DNA from: Burkholderiaceae bacterium
GTDB lineage: Bacteria > Pseudomonadota > Gammaproteobacteria > Burkholderiales > Burkholderiaceae_A
Direction of reading: 5' to 3'
NCBI GenBank assembly: GCA_023261135.1
Contig: JALRJP010000005.1
Span: 1 to 48,912, forward strand
DNA: 48,912 nucleotides
Positions 6,144 to 20,196 of this stretch are shown one piece after another. Both the position numbers and the translations under genes were made by a program. How positions within the stretch are numbered: the first letter of the stretch is position 1; the number at the start of each line of letters is the position of its first letter. The notes beneath the pieces are model-generated. The model searched no databases. It had not been told where the DNA came from and was given only the letters and a program-made list of their open reading frames with translations.

Positions 6144-7187
6144 TTAAAAAGAACTTTTAAGGGTACCCGAGTTTTTTGCCAAAACAGTTGCAGGGCCGTG
6201 CCCCTCGGCCATGGCTCTGCGCCAGGCCACCGCACCTGGCTGGCCATGAAAGAGCCCATGCCAATGTCGGGTCATCGCGGTTGGTGGCACGCCCCCTTCT
6301 AAGCCCCGCTCGAAGTAGCGCTGCAAGGGCGCAATAACCTCTTCACGTAGGGCTAGCCGCCTTGCGTCGTCCGCAAACAACTGCTCATCTAAATCCCTTA
6401 GAAGCCAGGGGTTATGGTAGGCGGCACGGCCAAGCATGAGGCCATCTGCTGGCAGCGTGTTGAGCCACTGAAGGGCCGAGCTGTCGGTGAGACCGCCATT
6501 CAAAATAAAGCAGGCATTGGGGAAGTCACGCTTAAGAAGCTTAAGCCGGTCGTAATGCAGGGGCGGAATTTCTCGGTTTTCTTTCGGGCTTAGCCCCTTC
6601 AGCAAGGCTGCCCGGGCATGGACGATAAATACGGTGCAGCCTCGCGAATAAAGCGCCTCAACGAAACGAAAAAGAAAACGGTAGTCGGTCTGGTCATCCA
6701 CACCAATTCGATGCTTCACGGTGACTGGTACGGAGACCGACTCGCGCATCGCCTGAATACAATCGGCCACAAGCTCTGGCTCGCGCATAAGACAAGCACC
6801 AAAGGCTCCCTTTTGCACCCGGTCGCTGGGGCAGCCACAGTTAAGGTTAATCTCGTCATAGCCCATGGCCTGACCAATAGCAGCCGCCTGCGCCAAGGCA
6901 TCGGGGTCCGAGCCGCCCAACTGCAACGCCACCGGGTGCTCAAAGGCATCAAAACCAAGAAGACGGTCTCGCTTGCCATGAATGACGGCAGCAGCAGTCA
7001 CCATTTCGGTGTAAAGCATCGCGTTGGGCGCAAGAAGCCGATGAAAGTAACGGCAGTGCCGTGTGGTCCAGTCCATCATCGGCGCGACACAGAGACGGCG
7101 GGCACGATCGAGCTGGCTTGAACCCAGCCCAAGTTCTTGCTCGGGTGGGGCGTCAAGGGCTGGACTTAAATTCTGAGGGGCGTTCAC
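6144..7187 (-). CDS. dusA: tRNA-dihydrouridine(20/20a) synthase
   Basis: RLCVAPMMDWTTRHCRYFHR; LQLGGSDP; NLNCGCPSDRVQKGAFGACLM; LNGGLTD; MLGRAAYHNPW. Confidence 0.95.
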   Translation of the reverse strand: MNAPQNLSPALDAPPEQELGLGSSQLDRARRLCVAPMMDWTTRHCRYFHRLLAPNAMLYTEMVTAAAVIHGKRDRLLGFDAFEHPVALQLGGSDPDALAQAAAIGQAMGYDEINLNCGCPSDRVQKGAFGACLMREPELVADCIQAMRESVSVPVTVKHRIGVDDQTDYRFLFRFVEALYSRGCTVFIVHARAALLKGLSPKENREIPPLHYDRLKLLKRDFPNACFILNGGLTDSSALQWLNTLPADGLMLGRAAYHNPWLLRDLDEQLFADDARRLALREEVIAPLQRYFERGLEGGVPPTAMTRHWHGLFHGQPGAVAWRRAMAEGHGPATVLAKNSGTLKSSF

Positions 7188-7215: not shown

Positions 7216-9294
7216 TTACATCGTGCGCCTGTACTGCAGACCAAGAAGGTACTGTCGAGGTGCACCGGGTTCGTAGTAGCGCTCAAAGGCCTGATCAACA
7301 ATCACCGATCCTGCATAGAGTTTGTCAGTCATGTTCTCAACCGCCAGTTGCACAAGAACTTCGCCACCTAAAGCCAGGTAGCGCGAGCCAATGCGCAGGT
7401 TCCAGACATTGGCGCGGTCGGTGGCCTGGCTGTTGTCGGAATTCACATCCATTGCACCAAGGCTGACAAACTCAAGGGTGGCATAACGTGACGGCTGGCC
7501 GGCACTGGGTTTGTTGGCTTTGGTTGCCCAGGTGAGCTCGGCCTGAATACGGTCACGGGGTATGCCGGGAATTCGGTTGCCCGAGGCCACATTAATAAGG
7601 CTAGTGCCTCGGCTCACTGAAAGAGCTTGGTCGTACTCCGCCTTTATCCACTGAGCGGAAAGGCCCGCCCGCAAGCCTAGGCCCAGAGGCTGACGGGCTG
7701 AAAGCTCAAGCCCAATTCTGCGCGTGTCCGCGTTCTGCCAGACCGAATTACTGGTAGATAAGAGCTGCGGAACGATGTCATCTTGGGTCTGCGCACCAAA
7801 AACTGCGAATTGGGCATACCCCTGGGCAACTGTCCGGTGCTTAAGTCCTGCCTCCCATTGAATCGACTTCGCTGGATTAATGTTGGTGTTAAACCGGGCA
7901 TCACCCTGAGCCTGACCCGGAACAAAAACATAAAGCGTTTCGTTAAGCGTGGGGGTCTCAAAGGAGCTTCCGACCGTGGCGTATAGGTTGGTCGCGTCGC
8001 TAAGATGCCGAGTCATTCCAAGGTAAACCGCATTACCCGAATAACGACGGCTTCCACCACTGGTGTCCCCTGAGACAAGTTCATTGTCCGTGGCCATTAA
8101 ATAAACCGAGCTAAGCCGTAAACCTGCCGACACGCTAAGCGAGTCGGAGGGAAATAGCTCCATCTGTCCCCACAGGCCATAGGCCGTTGAGACATTGTCT
8201 CGACGATTCGAAATAACTGGCTTACCGGTCTGACGGTCGTCACTCACATGGTCAAACTCGAGCCCAAGGCTTAATCGAGCGGCAGAACCCGCAAAGTTTG
8301 ATGACTGCTGGTTTTGAAGCCCAAGACCCCATTGCACTCGATCGATCAAAATCTTGTTGTTGGGAATAGGGTTGTCAAGATCACGGGTTGCCACGTACGC
8401 ACGTGCCTGCCAAGTACCCGCACTGGAGGTTCGCTGCTCGTGCACTGCACCCACAATGCTCTGACGATAGGTCTTGCCAACACCTTGGGCCTTGCCGAAG
8501 GCATTTGCCCGGTAAGGTGCCGTTCGAAACTCGGTGAGCGTGCGACTACCAGGGTCTTCCCCCTTCGTCTGATCAAGCACGTTAAAAATAAAGTTGGTCT
8601 TACGATCTTCGCCCTTAACAACAAGCTTGCTGTTGAGATGGCTTCTCTTGGCCTCGCTGTATTCACGGAAGCCGTCATAACTTAAAAGCCCGTAGTCCAC
8701 CACGAAGCCATAATCACCCCGCGTATCAGAGTATTGGAATGAAGATCGGTACAAATTGTCCGACCCTGTGAAACCCGACAGCAAGAGTTCAGGATCTTCG
8801 GAGGGATCACGCGTAAACGCCTGAAGAACGCCGCCGCTAGCATTGCCATACAAAGAGGCAACGGGGCCTTTCAAGACCTCAATACGCGAGGTTGAGGTTG
8901 CAGCAAACTGCGAAGTCTGTCCTTGACCATCCGGTAGGCTCTGAGGAAGGCCGTCCACCATCAGACGAACACCCCGAACACCAAAGGGCGCACGAGCACC
9001 ATAACCGCGAATGGAGACCTGAAGGTCCTGGGCAAGATTGTTACGGTTCGCCACAAAAATTCCGGGGGCCATACCAAGGGCCTCACTTAAATTAATTTGC
9101 GGCCCCGATTGCTCGATGGTCTGGCGGCTTACTACGTCAATTGACCCGTGGGCATCAAAAGCTTTTTGCTCGGAGCGGCTGGCACTGACAACCACCTCAT
9201 CGAGCATGGACTGACCGTGGGATGCGAAAGGTACAAGCAAAAAAGAAGCTGCGAGTAGGGCGCTGTTGCGCTTCGTTAGTTTGAGCTTCGACAT
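7216..9294 (-). CDS. TonB-dependent receptor, YncD/PqqU-like
   Basis: Start probably at ATG 9294 (MSKLKLTKRNSALLAASFLLVPFASHGQSMLDEVVVSASRSEQKAFDAHGSIDVVSR...). Plug: INLSEALGMAPGIFVANRNNLAQDLQVSIRGYGARAPFGVRGVRLMVDGLPQSLPDGQGQTSQ; C-terminal barrel ends in aromatic-rich LLGLQYRRTM. The plug closely resembles my recollection of E. coli YncD. Confidence 0.88.
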   Translation of the reverse strand: MSKLKLTKRNSALLAASFLLVPFASHGQSMLDEVVVSASRSEQKAFDAHGSIDVVSRQTIEQSGPQINLSEALGMAPGIFVANRNNLAQDLQVSIRGYGARAPFGVRGVRLMVDGLPQSLPDGQGQTSQFAATSTSRIEVLKGPVASLYGNASGGVLQAFTRDPSEDPELLLSGFTGSDNLYRSSFQYSDTRGDYGFVVDYGLLSYDGFREYSEAKRSHLNSKLVVKGEDRKTNFIFNVLDQTKGEDPGSRTLTEFRTAPYRANAFGKAQGVGKTYRQSIVGAVHEQRTSSAGTWQARAYVATRDLDNPIPNNKILIDRVQWGLGLQNQQSSNFAGSAARLSLGLEFDHVSDDRQTGKPVISNRRDNVSTAYGLWGQMELFPSDSLSVSAGLRLSSVYLMATDNELVSGDTSGGSRRYSGNAVYLGMTRHLSDATNLYATVGSSFETPTLNETLYVFVPGQAQGDARFNTNINPAKSIQWEAGLKHRTVAQGYAQFAVFGAQTQDDIVPQLLSTSNSVWQNADTRRIGLELSARQPLGLGLRAGLSAQWIKAEYDQALSVSRGTSLINVASGNRIPGIPRDRIQAELTWATKANKPSAGQPSRYATLEFVSLGAMDVNSDNSQATDRANVWNLRIGSRYLALGGEVLVQLAVENMTDKLYAGSVIVDQAFERYYEPGAPRQYLLGLQYRRTM

Positions 9295-9313
9295 TGGTAC
9301 TCTCCAAAAACAA

Positions 9314-9658
9314 TTAGGTGCAAGGAAACTCGGTCGCGAGGGTCTCTCTGATAACACTGGCTGCATTAAAACGATGAATGTCGGGACGTGAAGTCAATTG
9401 CGCACGAACCAAGGTAACAACCTCATTCAGCTGAATCGCAGTTCTCACGCAGAGTCGCGGATCCTTGGCTAGGGTCAGCCCATCAAGAACACCCATAAGG
9501 TAGTGCTGCCCGGCCAGCTGCTCCTCGAGATGTTGCGACGTGAGCTTTAGAAATAAGTCACCTGCTGTAAGGAAACGAACAGATGAACTTGCCCAGCCGG
9601 CACTGGCCGGCAACAAGAAAAAAGGCAGAACAAAAATAAGGGAAGAAATCCTAACCAT
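9314..9658 (-). CDS. Small secreted protein with Rap1a/Tai-like domain
   Basis: 114 aa with signal peptide; YLMGVLDGLTLAKDPRLCVRTAIQLNEVVTLVRAQLTSRPDIHRFNAASVIRETLATEFPC matches the remembered Rap1a pattern (GVxDG...C....Q....V...L...P..H..A...v...L...FPC); start overlaps cytochrome stop (TAATG). Confidence 0.65.
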   Translation of the reverse strand: MVRISSLIFVLPFFLLPASAGWASSSVRFLTAGDLFLKLTSQHLEEQLAGQHYLMGVLDGLTLAKDPRLCVRTAIQLNEVVTLVRAQLTSRPDIHRFNAASVIRETLATEFPCT

Positions 9659-10020
9659 TAAGGATTGGGTTCAACAGTGATTTTTATAGAGCTGTACCAA
9701 GCCGCTAGGTTGGCAATATCGTCATCCGTGAGCTGCTTGGCAATAACAGCCATAACCTCGTGAGCTCTTTTGCCACTGCGGTAATTTCTTAGTTGCTGCG
9801 CAAGATAATCAGGCACCTGGCCCGCAAGATGAGGGGCCGAAGGCATTGAAGCCAAGCCCATAGGTCCGTGGCAAACCGCACAGGCCATCATGGCCTTCTG
9901 GCGACCAAGATTAGCGTCTGCCGCCGATGCTGGGGCTGAAAAATATAGAACCGTAAGCAAGGCGAGAGCAAAAGCCTGCCTTAGAACACTTAAGGTAAAC
10001 CGAGTCATCTGAGATCCCAA
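9658..10020 (-). CDS. Periplasmic class I cytochrome c
   Basis: Signal peptide, CAVCHG haem motif, distal Met region, single haem. Confidence 0.88.
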   Translation of the reverse strand: MGSQMTRFTLSVLRQAFALALLTVLYFSAPASAADANLGRQKAMMACAVCHGPMGLASMPSAPHLAGQVPDYLAQQLRNYRSGKRAHEVMAVIAKQLTDDDIANLAAWYSSIKITVEPNP

Positions 10021-10160
10021 AAAACGATTTCAAAAGAATTTAGCTGAACGCAAACGTGTCAAGGTAACAGCATGCTAATTCCCATCCGGGGCAAAGAACA
10101 TGAAGCGTCGACTCCTTTGCAAATACCTTTCAACCGACGCTTACGAGCGCCTCCAAATAA

Positions 10161-10190
10161 AGAAGGCCAGCCACTGCTGGCTGGCCTTCT
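10161..10190 (-). terminator. Probable intrinsic terminator after the PQQ dehydrogenase gene
   Basis: Perfect 13-bp stem AGAAGGCCAGCCA / TGGCTGGCCTTCT with CTGC loop, followed on the minus strand by TTATTTGG. Confidence 0.75.
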
Positions 10191-10207
10191 AGGCACCTGT
10201 GCTCAGC

Positions 10208-11488
10208 TTATTCCGAATAACTGATGCGATAGATCGCGCCCGCGTAATCGTCAGAGACAAGCATAGAACCGTCTTTCATAACAGCCACATCCACTGGCCG
10301 ACCACGATAGAGGCCCGTTTCCGAATCTAAAAAGCCGGAAGCAAAAACCTCCATTTTTCCAGCGGTGCCATCCGCCTTAATGGGCACGAACTGGACTTCA
10401 GCGCCACTTGGCTTGGTGCGATTCCAAGAGCCATGGGCTGCAACGAACACGCCGCCCTGATACTTAGAAGGAAACTTCTTGCCCGTATAGAAAGCCATTC
10501 CAAGCTGGGCCTGGTGAGCAGGGAATTCCACCTGAGGGAAGATGGCGCCCGCGGGTTCCTTCATGTCCTTGAGATCAGGCGCAGCCGGAGAACCAGCGAC
10601 TTTGAACTTCCCATTCCAATAGGGAAAGCCAAAATGTTGCCCAGCTTTCGTTGAGCGGTTCAGCTCACCGGGAGGAATATCATCGCCGAGCCCGTCAACC
10701 TGGTTATCCGTCCACCAAAGCGAGCCGTCCTTAGGATTGAAGTCCATGCCAACCGAGTTACGAGAACCCACAGCAAAGACCTCTCGCTTGCTGCCATCGA
10801 AGGCATTCATACGAACAATGCCGCCGATTCCAATTTTTTCGTAGCTGGCGATCTTATCTTTAGGTTGAACGTTATAAGGTTGACCTAGAGTCACATAAAG
10901 CATACCGTCGGGACCAATTCGGCAGGTCCGCGCACCGTGGTTAAAAGACTCTTCTTCAGCAGGAATTAAACCCCCTTTTGAAACAACCTCGATCACTGCA
11001 ACGTCCGGTCCCTCGTAGAAGAACTCGGCAGCAGGGAAATTCAACACTCTGTTGTGCTCAACAACCACCAAAAAACCGTCCTTCGTCCAGCAGACAGCGT
11101 TGGGATTGGTAAACTTGAGCGAGGGAGCAAAAGACTTCACCTCATCCGCCACACCGTCGCTGTTCCGATCGGTAACAGCCCAAACGGTCGTCTTGCGCGT
11201 TCCAACGAAAAGCATGTTAGTTGAAGGCGCAACTGCCATATGGCGGGCGTCAGGAACAATGGCAAAGAGCTCAATTTTAAAACCCGGGGGTAACTTGACC
11301 TTCTTCAGATTCTCCCGAATGGCGGCGGCATTCTTGCCCTCTTGAGGAACAGAAGGGATGTTGAGGTCTGTCGTAGCAACTTTCATCTGCTTAAGTGTTG
11401 CCAGGTTATCTGGGGCGGCAGATACCGGCCCCATCGACATTCCCGCGAGAACGGCGGCCGAAACCGCTGAGATTGCAATGCGATTCAT
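10208..11488 (-). CDS. PQQ-dependent sugar (glucose/sorbosone-type) dehydrogenase, periplasmic
   Basis: Signal peptide ending SAAPDN; VKLPPGFKIELFAIVPDARHMAVAPSTNMLFVGTR, FNHGARTCRIGPDGMLYVTLGQP, AVGSRNSVGMDFNPKDGSLWWTDNQVDGLGDDIPPGELN, HGSWNRTKPSGAEV, RPVDVAVMKDGSMLVSDDYAGAIYRISY. Confidence 0.88.
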   Translation of the reverse strand: MNRIAISAVSAAVLAGMSMGPVSAAPDNLATLKQMKVATTDLNIPSVPQEGKNAAAIRENLKKVKLPPGFKIELFAIVPDARHMAVAPSTNMLFVGTRKTTVWAVTDRNSDGVADEVKSFAPSLKFTNPNAVCWTKDGFLVVVEHNRVLNFPAAEFFYEGPDVAVIEVVSKGGLIPAEEESFNHGARTCRIGPDGMLYVTLGQPYNVQPKDKIASYEKIGIGGIVRMNAFDGSKREVFAVGSRNSVGMDFNPKDGSLWWTDNQVDGLGDDIPPGELNRSTKAGQHFGFPYWNGKFKVAGSPAAPDLKDMKEPAGAIFPQVEFPAHQAQLGMAFYTGKKFPSKYQGGVFVAAHGSWNRTKPSGAEVQFVPIKADGTAGKMEVFASGFLDSETGLYRGRPVDVAVMKDGSMLVSDDYAGAIYRISYSE

Positions 11489-11651: not shown

Positions 11652-13166
11652 ATGAAAGAAATCGAAATCTGCCTTGGGCTTATAGCCAAGACCCCCCTGA
11701 ACGCTCGCCTTCTTTCGGGCTGGCCGGCCCTAAGCGGCCTGCGGCCACGCCGCCAGCTTCTCGTTGCCCACTATTTCGACACAAGCGCGGGACTTCTCGC
11801 GCGCCACCGCATGGGTCTTCGACTTCGGCGTGAGTCAGGCCGTTGGGTGCAGACCTTTAAGGCCGAAGTCAGCGGGCTTGAGCGGGTTGAACTCAACCAT
11901 CGCCTAAGCCAGCGTCAGGCGAGCCCGCCGCCGGCCCTATCTGCCGAAGGACTGCCCCGTAAAGATCAGTTGCTAGCCATGGGGCTGCGCCGCGGCGATA
12001 TCGCTGCGATTCTTGATCTGCAAACGCTTCGCGAGCAGTTTCAAGTCGAGGTCAGGCGTCAGACCTGGGCAGTGACATGGGGGCAGAGTCAGCTTGAACT
12101 GGCCTTTGACCAGGGCCTGCTACGAGCCAACAGCCAAGATCGGGCATTCACTGAGCTGGAACTTGAACTTAGCGCAGGGCAGGTGCGCGATCTTTTTGAA
12201 GCCACCCAGTCTTTATCTGCACACCTCGAAGGTCTTGGTCTTGAGGCATTCTTTGAAACACGATCAAAGGCAGAACGCGGCTTTCAGTTCGCAGCCCTTC
12301 AGAACGCAGAGGGCAGACACCCCAGAGCGGCTGCCCTTGCAAAAAGCCGTGCTAAAGAAAGAAGCCAAGACACGGGCTCTACCAAGACGAGCCCAATACT
12401 TAGCCTGCACCTTCAGAACGCGGCGTATCGGCTTAGCAAGGAAGTAATCGAGGTTCTTGAGACCCAAGAGCCCGAGGGGCCGCATCAGGCGCGAGTGGCC
12501 TTACGGCAAATTCGAACGCTACTTAAGTTACTGATTAACGCAGGGCTTATTGACCCAAGCGTGCGGCTCGAAGAAAAGGCTTCGGAACTTGCCGATGCCT
12601 TGGGTGAGCTGCGTGACCTTGATGTTGCCGAAGAAAAGCTGCTTCGACTGCTTGAGAGGCATTTGGGCTTTGATGCCTCGGTGACTGCGGCGGCCGTTGC
12701 CATTTCTGAGCAGCTTCAACAAACCCGAAGCACCTTGCGTCAAAGGCTTTTAACACATGACTGCCGGCAGTTTGTTCTGGATGTCCTTGCCTTTGCCAAT
12801 ACGCTCAAAGACCATGTCGGACTGCCCGAGGCACAGGTCTTCGCGAACGAACAGGCCACCCGGTTTCGCCGGCGCGTGAAAAAAAGAGCCAAGCTCGAGC
12901 CAACCGAAGAGAACCTTCACCGGCTGCGGTTAAGCCATAAGGCCTTGCGTTACGCCAGCCCAGTTTTACTGGCGCTTGGGGCTGACAACACCCTTGCAGA
13001 AGAAGCCCGAAAAGCAGCTAAAGCGCAGGATCGCCTAGGCAACGACCATGATCGTGCAGTCATGCTAACGACCCTTCAGAAGGCGCTAAGCCGGCAGACA
13101 CTGCCAGTGCATCACCAGGATCGCTTTCTTGCCCTAGCCCAAGGGCTTCTGGTTGGGATGAAATAA
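11652..13166 (+). CDS. CYTH domain plus CHAD domain protein
   Basis: N-terminal CYTH-like (EIEICLGL...YFDTSAGLLARHRMGLRLRRESGRWVQTFKAE) and C-terminal CHAD (HQARVALRQIRTLLKL...LRDLDVAEEKL...HRLRLSHKALRYASPVLLAL...DRLGNDHDRAVM). Confidence 0.9.
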   Translation: MKEIEICLGLIAKTPLNARLLSGWPALSGLRPRRQLLVAHYFDTSAGLLARHRMGLRLRRESGRWVQTFKAEVSGLERVELNHRLSQRQASPPPALSAEGLPRKDQLLAMGLRRGDIAAILDLQTLREQFQVEVRRQTWAVTWGQSQLELAFDQGLLRANSQDRAFTELELELSAGQVRDLFEATQSLSAHLEGLGLEAFFETRSKAERGFQFAALQNAEGRHPRAAALAKSRAKERSQDTGSTKTSPILSLHLQNAAYRLSKEVIEVLETQEPEGPHQARVALRQIRTLLKLLINAGLIDPSVRLEEKASELADALGELRDLDVAEEKLLRLLERHLGFDASVTAAAVAISEQLQQTRSTLRQRLLTHDCRQFVLDVLAFANTLKDHVGLPEAQVFANEQATRFRRRVKKRAKLEPTEENLHRLRLSHKALRYASPVLLALGADNTLAEEARKAAKAQDRLGNDHDRAVMLTTLQKALSRQTLPVHHQDRFLALAQGLLVGMK

Positions 13167-13185: not shown

Positions 13186-14010
13186 ATGACTGAACTGCCC
13201 AAAAAAGTCTATGAGAAAGAACTGCTCCGACTTCAGATTGAACTGGTTAAGCTTCAAGAATGGGTCGTCGCGACTGGGGCAAGACTTGTTGTTATTTTTG
13301 AAGGACGCGATGCAGCGGGTAAAGGTGGTGCAATTAAACGCATCACCGAGGCTCTTAACCCTCGGGTCTGTCGCGTGGCAGCCCTGCCCAAGCCCAATGA
13401 ACGCGAGCGTGGCCAGTGGTATTTTCAGCGTTATGTGCATCACCTGCCCAGCCACGGCGAGATCGTTTTATTCGACAGGTCCTGGTACAACCGTGCCGGC
13501 GTAGAACGCGTTCTTGGCTTTTGCAGCCCTGACGAGCTGCACACCTTTCTAATGGGCTGCCCCTCGTTTGAGCGGTTACTTGTGGCAGAGGGTATTCAGT
13601 TGGTGAAGTACTGGTTCTCTGTGAGCCAGGACGAACAAGAAAAGCGTTTTCAAGAGCGCGCATCTAACCCATTAAAAACATGGAAGCTCAGCCCCATCGA
13701 CATTGAGTCGCGCAAGTACTGGGATGCCTATTCCCAAGCCAAAGACGACATGATGCAGGCCACCGATATTCCGGAAGCGCCCTGGTATGTTGTTGAGGCC
13801 GACGAAAAGCACAAGGCAAGATTGAACTGCATTCAGCATCTGCTCAGTCTTGTGCCCTATGAGCCGGTGCGCAAAGAATCCATCAAGCTTCCTGCAATCA
13901 AACTTAACAAATTAAAAAGCAAAAAGGCCTCAAGTCATACGAAGAAAACTCTTGACCGCCCTCCAAAAATTGCCCAACGCCTAGTGCCCGACTACATAGC
14001 GGCGCTCTAA
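13186..14010 (+). CDS. ppk2: Polyphosphate kinase 2 (PPK2) family protein
   Basis: FEGRDAAGKGGAIKRITEALNPRVCRVAALPKPNERERGQWYFQRYVHHLPSHGEIVLFDRSWYNRAGVE (Walker A/B). Confidence 0.94.
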   Translation: MTELPKKVYEKELLRLQIELVKLQEWVVATGARLVVIFEGRDAAGKGGAIKRITEALNPRVCRVAALPKPNERERGQWYFQRYVHHLPSHGEIVLFDRSWYNRAGVERVLGFCSPDELHTFLMGCPSFERLLVAEGIQLVKYWFSVSQDEQEKRFQERASNPLKTWKLSPIDIESRKYWDAYSQAKDDMMQATDIPEAPWYVVEADEKHKARLNCIQHLLSLVPYEPVRKESIKLPAIKLNKLKSKKASSHTKKTLDRPPKIAQRLVPDYIAAL

Positions 14011-19275: not shown

Positions 19276-20196
19276 TTAGTAGGCTGAAGGAACAAACATG
19301 TCAGCCGGAACAGGCCTGCGAAAGTAGTCAGGGTTCTTCTCGCGGGCGGGCAGAACCACAAGTTCGTGAGGCACTTCTCCGTAAGGAATCTGGCTAAGCA
19401 GATGCGCCATGCAGTTCAGACGCGCTCGCTTTTTATCGTTGCCCTCAACCACCCACCATCGGGCCTCGGGAATGTGGGTGCGCTCCAGCATGAGTTCCTT
19501 GGCCTTGGTGTAAGCCTCCCATCGCCTGCGTGATTCCAGGTCCATGGGCGAAAGCTTCCATTGCTTTAAGGGGTCTTTAATGCGCATGGTGAAGCGCATG
19601 TGCTGCTCTTCATCGGAAATGGAAAACCAGTACTTAATCAGAATGATCCCTGAGCGCACCAGCATCTTTTCAAATTCGGGGACCGTACGAAAAAACTCCT
19701 CGTACTCCTCGTCTGTGCAAAAACCCATAACCTTCTCAACCCCTGCGCGGTTGTACCAGCTGCGGTCAAACAAGACAATTTCGCCCCCGGCAGGCAGGTG
19801 GCTGACATAGCGCTGAAAGTACCACTGGGTGCGCTCGCGCTCGTTAGGCGCAGAAAGCGCAGCCACACGGGCCACGCGAGGGTTCAGTCTTTGGGTAATA
19901 CGCTTAATGGCGCCACCCTTGCCTGCCGCGTCGCGGCCTTCAAAAAGAACCACAAGCTTTAACTTCTTCTCAACCACCCAGTCTTGCAGCTTTACAAGCT
20001 CACCCTGCAGACGAAAGAGCTCACGAAAATAAAGCCGGCGATCCATGGAGCCGTCAGCCCCTGGCCCCTGCTGAGGGCCGTCTAGCAAAAGCGCATCCAG
20101 CCGATCGTCATCGAGCTCCATCTCAAGCTCCTCGTCATAACTGTCAAGAAGGTCCAGATCGGCGCGCTGCTGAAAGCTCAATGGGGGCTTGGTCAT
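19276..20196 (-). CDS. ppk2: Polyphosphate kinase 2 (PPK2) family protein, second paralog
   Basis: FEGRDAAGKGGAIKRITQRLNPRVARVAALSAPNERERTQWYFQRYVSHLPAGGEIVLFDRSWYNRAGVEKVMGFC; acidic N-terminal extension. Confidence 0.95.
   Translation of the reverse strand: MTKPPLSFQQRADLDLLDSYDEELEMELDDDRLDALLLDGPQQGPGADGSMDRRLYFRELFRLQGELVKLQDWVVEKKLKLVVLFEGRDAAGKGGAIKRITQRLNPRVARVAALSAPNERERTQWYFQRYVSHLPAGGEIVLFDRSWYNRAGVEKVMGFCTDEEYEEFFRTVPEFEKMLVRSGIILIKYWFSISDEEQHMRFTMRIKDPLKQWKLSPMDLESRRRWEAYTKAKELMLERTHIPEARWWVVEGNDKKRARLNCMAHLLSQIPYGEVPHELVVLPAREKNPDYFRRPVPADMFVPSAY

Follow-up and report, generated by a model that had tools for sequence, protein, structure and literature searches.

Our analysis indicates that four adjacent minus-strand genes in 48,912 nucleotides of DNA from a Burkholderiaceae bacterium (the window, meaning the whole stretch of DNA analysed) very probably constitute a module for acquiring and using PQQ. 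A sequence-only reading of this DNA had proposed such a cassette, and the comparison of genomes supported the proposal through the PqqU-like receptor, the PQQ ligands of the dehydrogenase, the lack of PqqC and the linkage of the genes; import, oxidation, dependence on PQQ, the substrate and the path of the electrons are what we infer from these. In the mechanism we propose, the receptor, energised by TonB, would capture scarce external PQQ and release it into the periplasm, where a secreted six-bladed dehydrogenase would bind it together with Ca2+, making an inner-membrane step unnecessary. The enzyme would then oxidise a sugar or a similar substrate, and the electrons would pass to a small cytochrome c and from there to the respiratory chain. 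Since the genome is apparently unable to make PQQ, the receptor would substitute for pqqABCDE.

The open reading frames of the whole window, together with Pfam, confirmed the order dehydrogenase, cytochrome c, Rap1a-like gene and receptor, with the terminator placed as first read (Table 1). The close packing reported for the last three genes was also found: the Rap1a-like start overlaps the cytochrome stop (TAATG), and a gap of 19 nt separates the Rap1a-like stop from ATG 9294. Judged by the GGAG ribosome-binding site ahead of it, this ATG is most likely the receptor start, the mechanical reading frame extending to 9366 and overlapping the Rap1a-like gene. Because of the overlap and the short gap with its ribosome-binding site, we regard these three genes as one tight operon. 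The dehydrogenase gene lies upstream of this operon and has its own terminator, a strong 13-bp hairpin ahead of the cytochrome gene, so that the four genes may not all be co-transcribed. All four products, read by eye, have a signal-peptide-like N-terminus, ending with AxA in the dehydrogenase, and the receptor plug quoted in the earlier reading matched the translation exactly. Directly downstream of the receptor is a dusA-type gene, found in the same place in three genomes of the same genus (G008, G009 and G004) and about 3 kb off in G001. On the other side, two polyphosphate-kinase-2-like genes and a CYTH/CHAD-like gene near the module suggest, from their translations, polyphosphate metabolism.

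Table 1. Genes and signals of the module and its neighbours, in window positions
Feature	Position	Strand	Evidence	Product length
Dehydrogenase	10208-11488	-	PF07995 2.9e-14, 53.5 bits	426 aa
Intrinsic terminator, between dehydrogenase and cytochrome	10190-10161	-	13-pair hairpin and T-rich tail	
Cytochrome c	9658-10020 (likely ATG start 10008)	-	PF00034 5e-7 / PF13442, one CxxCH, signal peptide	
Rap1a-like small periplasmic protein (optional part)	9314-9658	-	PF18602 5.8e-11	
PqqU-like TonB-dependent receptor	7216-9294	-	PF00593/PF07715 2.6e-27/1.9e-18	692 aa
dusA-type tRNA dihydrouridine synthase	6144-7187	-		
CYTH/CHAD-like gene	11652-13166	+	translation read	
Polyphosphate-kinase-2-like gene	13186-14010	+	translation read	
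Polyphosphate-kinase-2-like gene	19276-20196	-	translation read	

By sequence and predicted fold, the receptor was PqqU-like in every test run save the strict NCBIfam cut-off. NF041535 (PqqU) was the best of 17 NCBIfam models, about 200 bits ahead, at 326.6 bits against an equivalog cut-off of 1200 bits; we therefore call the receptor a PqqU-like homolog by the published residues, outside the narrow NF041535 equivalog. Among solved structures its best matches were 6v81 and 9c4o (YncD/PqqU; 1.5e-74 and 1.4e-73), the next best reaching 4e-11. Its AlphaFold model (pLDDT 84) was placed by Foldseek on PqqU with bound PQQ (9c4o, E 1.5e-63, TM 0.86/0.90), well ahead of FoxA, FhuA and FecA. In a tree with eight E. 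coli TonB receptors, the window receptor and E. coli PqqU formed a 100/100 clade apart from the seven others, with outgroups that were few and long-branched. These results uphold the resemblance to YncD first noticed in the plug, and a cobalamin, siderophore or copper receptor was ruled out by the NCBIfam, PDB, Foldseek, tree and contact-residue comparisons.

The PQQ contacts of PqqU have been mapped, with an import signature of an aromatic residue at 99 together with R304 and R365 (Munder et al., PMC12124388). After the E. coli numbering had been verified residue by residue, alignment to E. coli PqqU gave F104, R304 and R354 at the signature positions of the window receptor, and also Q89, Q126, K274, N451 and Y455 (Q84, Q121, K274, N477 and Y481 in E. 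coli), so that eight of the eleven contacts are kept. The equivalents of Q308, Q310 and the semi-conserved R536 (here N516) are replaced. The Y/F/W-R-R signature was present in all 41 receptor homologs and in none of the seven other E. coli TonB receptors. The three substitutions, which occur in the window clade, the score far under the PqqU cut-off and the ability of TonB receptors to switch ligand would all fit a PqqU-derived receptor that has moved on to a metal chelate or a different small anionic redox compound, in which case the linkage would reflect import of the substrate or metal of the enzyme. We consider this unlikely, given that the residues weightiest in mutagenesis (Y99 as F, K274, R304 and R365) are kept (PMC12124388), that the exclusion with pqqC at family level ties the receptor to PQQ and not to a substrate, and that the receptor partners three different dehydrogenase subfamilies.

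The receptor of one relative, G004 (L103), is 38% identical to that of the window, while the adjacent dehydrogenases are 85% identical. The sequences perhaps reflect very fast change of the receptor or its replacement in place. A phage-driven change is conceivable, given that phages use E. coli PqqU as a receptor.

For the dehydrogenase, PF07995 (GSDH) scored 53.5 bits against a gathering score of 25. The closest folds to its AlphaFold model (pLDDT 90) were the AA12 PQQ pyranose dehydrogenases 6jt5 and 6h7t, followed by PQQ sugar dehydrogenases, among them 3a9g, 2g8s and 1c9u, that come from archaea, Thermus, E. coli and Acinetobacter. The PQQ and Ca ligands of the AA12 enzyme CcPDH are R273, H363, R430, N431, D451, H539, H560, W563, N564 and R621 (PMC6881789). 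All ten were matched in the window dehydrogenase, by R82, H184, R243, N244, D265, H325, H352, W355, N356 and R397, the middle residues and the H325-N356 block being mapped by profile alignment, and R82 and R397 from motif position, not from superposition. Nine of the ten positions were invariant in 47 of 47 homologs, and H352 did not vary among the 33 close homologs. The window enzyme and CcPDH (6jt5) have an identical HGSWNR loop, which in CcPDH takes the place of Lys377, a contact in sGDH. From the modelled fold, we regard the protein as a candidate periplasmic six-bladed relative of the PQQ sugar dehydrogenases with a fold nearest to AA12. The earlier label "sorbosone-type" needs revision, the enzyme standing nearer to the AA12/aldose-sugar class than to classic sorbosone dehydrogenase. 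Given the modest GSDH score (53 bits), the lack of a characterised close relative and the unusual substrates of AA12 enzymes (PMC6881810), one might suppose a propeller that no longer uses PQQ, the scavenged cofactor serving elsewhere, for example as an antioxidant. This appears quite unlikely in view of the conserved ligands, of the presence of the enzyme tracking PQQ synthesis or import within the family, and of a genome without a TIGR03075 quinoprotein.

The small monohaem cytochrome c is a candidate electron acceptor of the dehydrogenase, and a cytochrome c gene lies beside the dehydrogenase gene in most related loci. The small secreted Rap1a-like protein, which the sequence-only reading had counted as part of the module, proved not to belong to its core: the gene was limited to the genus of the window, in four genomes (the window, G008, G009 and G004), and is an optional genus-level extra. 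A role as a core PQQ chaperone was considered and is unsupported, because no locus outside the genus has the gene. No peptidoglycan endopeptidase effector, the partner that Rap1a immunity proteins have in a T6SS setting, was recognised among the reading frames read around the PF18602 gene.

The small source genome appears, from its gene content, unable to make PQQ. A model search, which covered PqqC alone among the Pqq proteins, found no PqqC in the assembly, which is 92.5% complete. The assembly encodes seven radical-SAM proteins, no PqqE-like one among them as assigned by reading. A PqqE hidden among the radical-SAM proteins was rejected, all seven reading as housekeeping enzymes (MoaA twice, MiaB, RimO, LipA, HemN/HemW and RlmN). 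The earlier observation that pqqABCDE genes are missing from the window thereby extends, for PqqC and PqqE, to the genome. The 8-bladed PQQ alcohol dehydrogenase (TIGR03075) was likewise absent from this genome, and receptor-bearing congeners also lacked PqqC.

Within the GTDB family, ten of 26 genomes had the receptor, nine had pqqC, and none had both. The dehydrogenase occurred in 14 genomes, each with exactly one of the two, and the seven genomes with neither receptor nor pqqC all lacked the dehydrogenase. Fisher tests uncorrected for phylogeny gave p = 0.004 for the exclusion of receptor and pqqC and p = 0.001 for the dehydrogenase against one PQQ supply; the genomes are related, one genus making up eight of the nine with PqqC, and these statistics are therefore not independent. 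The relatives with pqqC in place of the receptor include G005 and genus g3 (e.g. L114), and a PQQ alcohol dehydrogenase was found in six of the eight g3 genomes and in none of the receptor-bearing relatives. In another genome (G010, L098), one receptor has a dehydrogenase on either side; the two belong to different subfamilies, and each is accompanied by a cytochrome c of its own.

We found the same pairing across the order. Among 398 genomes, the receptor was detected in 127, the dehydrogenase in 123 and PqqC above cut-off in 76. Receptor and dehydrogenase lay within 5 kb of each other in 26 genomes from ten families, where about 0.5 would be expected by chance, and 24 of the 26 were without pqqC; conservation of the neighbourhood, on which the cassette idea depended, is thus borne out. 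In 20 genomes the receptor was near pqqC, with zero overlap with the 26. The usual gene order was dehydrogenase, cytochrome c, receptor, with both orders and divergent arrangements occurring. The dehydrogenases of linked loci belonged to two subfamilies: that of the window, and another, about 40% identical to the first, that is accompanied by a longer cytochrome of about 190-200 aa. Linkage was seen in 27 of the 80 loci from named genomes, such as Limnohabitans, Rhodoferax and Piscinibacter. Hence, the module is widespread and not peculiar to the source genome. Of the 123 genomes with a dehydrogenase homolog, 27 had neither receptor nor pqqC; some homologs may therefore not need PQQ or may rely on diffusion, or the receptor was missed by the scan.

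The survey of Munder et al. found no identified PQQ enzyme in one third of PqqU bearers, named the Nitrosomonadaceae (n=40) among them and suggested an unknown use of PQQ (PMC12124388). Its enzyme search employed PF01011, PF13360, PF13570 and a custom model; the text names no GSDH, and sorbosone, PF07995 and YliI are absent from it. In our set, family f16 had AMO in 60 of 80 genomes, which marks it as one of ammonia oxidisers, and we infer that it is Nitrosomonadaceae. Its largest genus carries a PqqU-like receptor with the published signature but with E in place of K274, a change that PMC12124388 also mentions. Near this receptor the genus also encodes a full-length member of PF07995, matching E. 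coli YliI at about 1e-94 to 1e-102; of the 37 Nitrosomonas-like genomes, 31 have the two genes within 6 kb of each other (L252-L267 among the loci), where about 0.2 would be expected. In the three YliI-type sequences inspected, Ser stands where the catalytic Arg-Asn pair has its Asn, a point that calls for caution. That the receptor and the dehydrogenase act separately, as neighbours by coincidence or operon shuffling, is very improbable and already largely refuted, for although a terminator splits the dehydrogenase from the cytochrome-Rap1a-receptor operon and the two genes are unlinked in G017, Nitrosospira-like genomes and others, linkage in the 26 genomes and in the Nitrosomonas-like genomes far exceeds the expected numbers and comes in varied gene arrangements.

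We think it rather probable that the enzyme-less PqqU bearers, for example the nitrifying Nitrosomonadaceae, are generally explained by PqqU paired with a six-bladed quinoprotein of the GSDH/AA12 or YliI type, usually with a cytochrome c as well: this fold class was apparently omitted from the published survey, and its genes lie beside the importer. With a candidate for the missing enzyme adjoining the importer in both the window lineage and the Nitrosomonas-like genomes, the question becomes directly testable. The acquire-and-use module further suggests that bacteria with small genomes conserve the enzyme and trade the synthesis operon for an importer, and so come to depend on their community for the cofactor. 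In the open-access literature we found no described linkage of PqqU and GSDH, and PMC12124388 was the only PqqU survey that turned up. None of the parts is new in itself; the novelty lies in the module, in its mutual exclusion with PQQ synthesis and in what it suggests about PqqU bearers without known quinoproteins.

Compared with known systems, the window receptor shares with E. coli PqqU (YncD; PMC12124388) the fold, the sequence clade, the plug motif and the contacts Q84, Y99 (as F), Q121, K274, R304, R365, N477 and Y481, but is about 30% identical and has replaced the equivalents of Q308, Q310 and R536. In E. coli K-12, the divergent neighbour of pqqU is yncE (L136; NC_000913.3 1523307-1524368), annotated as a PQQ-like-domain protein. 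Whereas E. coli pqqU adjoins yncE, the window receptor shares its operon with a cytochrome c gene and lies beside a PQQ-type dehydrogenase. That enzyme resembles the AA12 proteins (Coprinopsis CcPDH and Trichoderma TrAA12) in the six-bladed propeller, the His/Arg/Asn catalytic trio, counterparts of the residues that bind PQQ and Ca and, for CcPDH, the HGSWN(R) loop; it differs in being only about 18-20% identical, bacterial and periplasmic, and in having a separate cytochrome c gene instead of a fused cytochrome b domain. With YliI/Asd (2g8s) and sGDH (1c9u) it shares the PF07995 fold, the catalytic His and the Arg-Asn pair, but identity by structure is 13-17%, and the Lys377-type carboxylate ligand of sGDH is apparently replaced by the AA12-like HGSWN loop. 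Finally, in some Burkholderiales pqqU is linked to the genes of PQQ synthesis (PMC12124388), whereas here the receptor is linked to the enzyme that would use PQQ.
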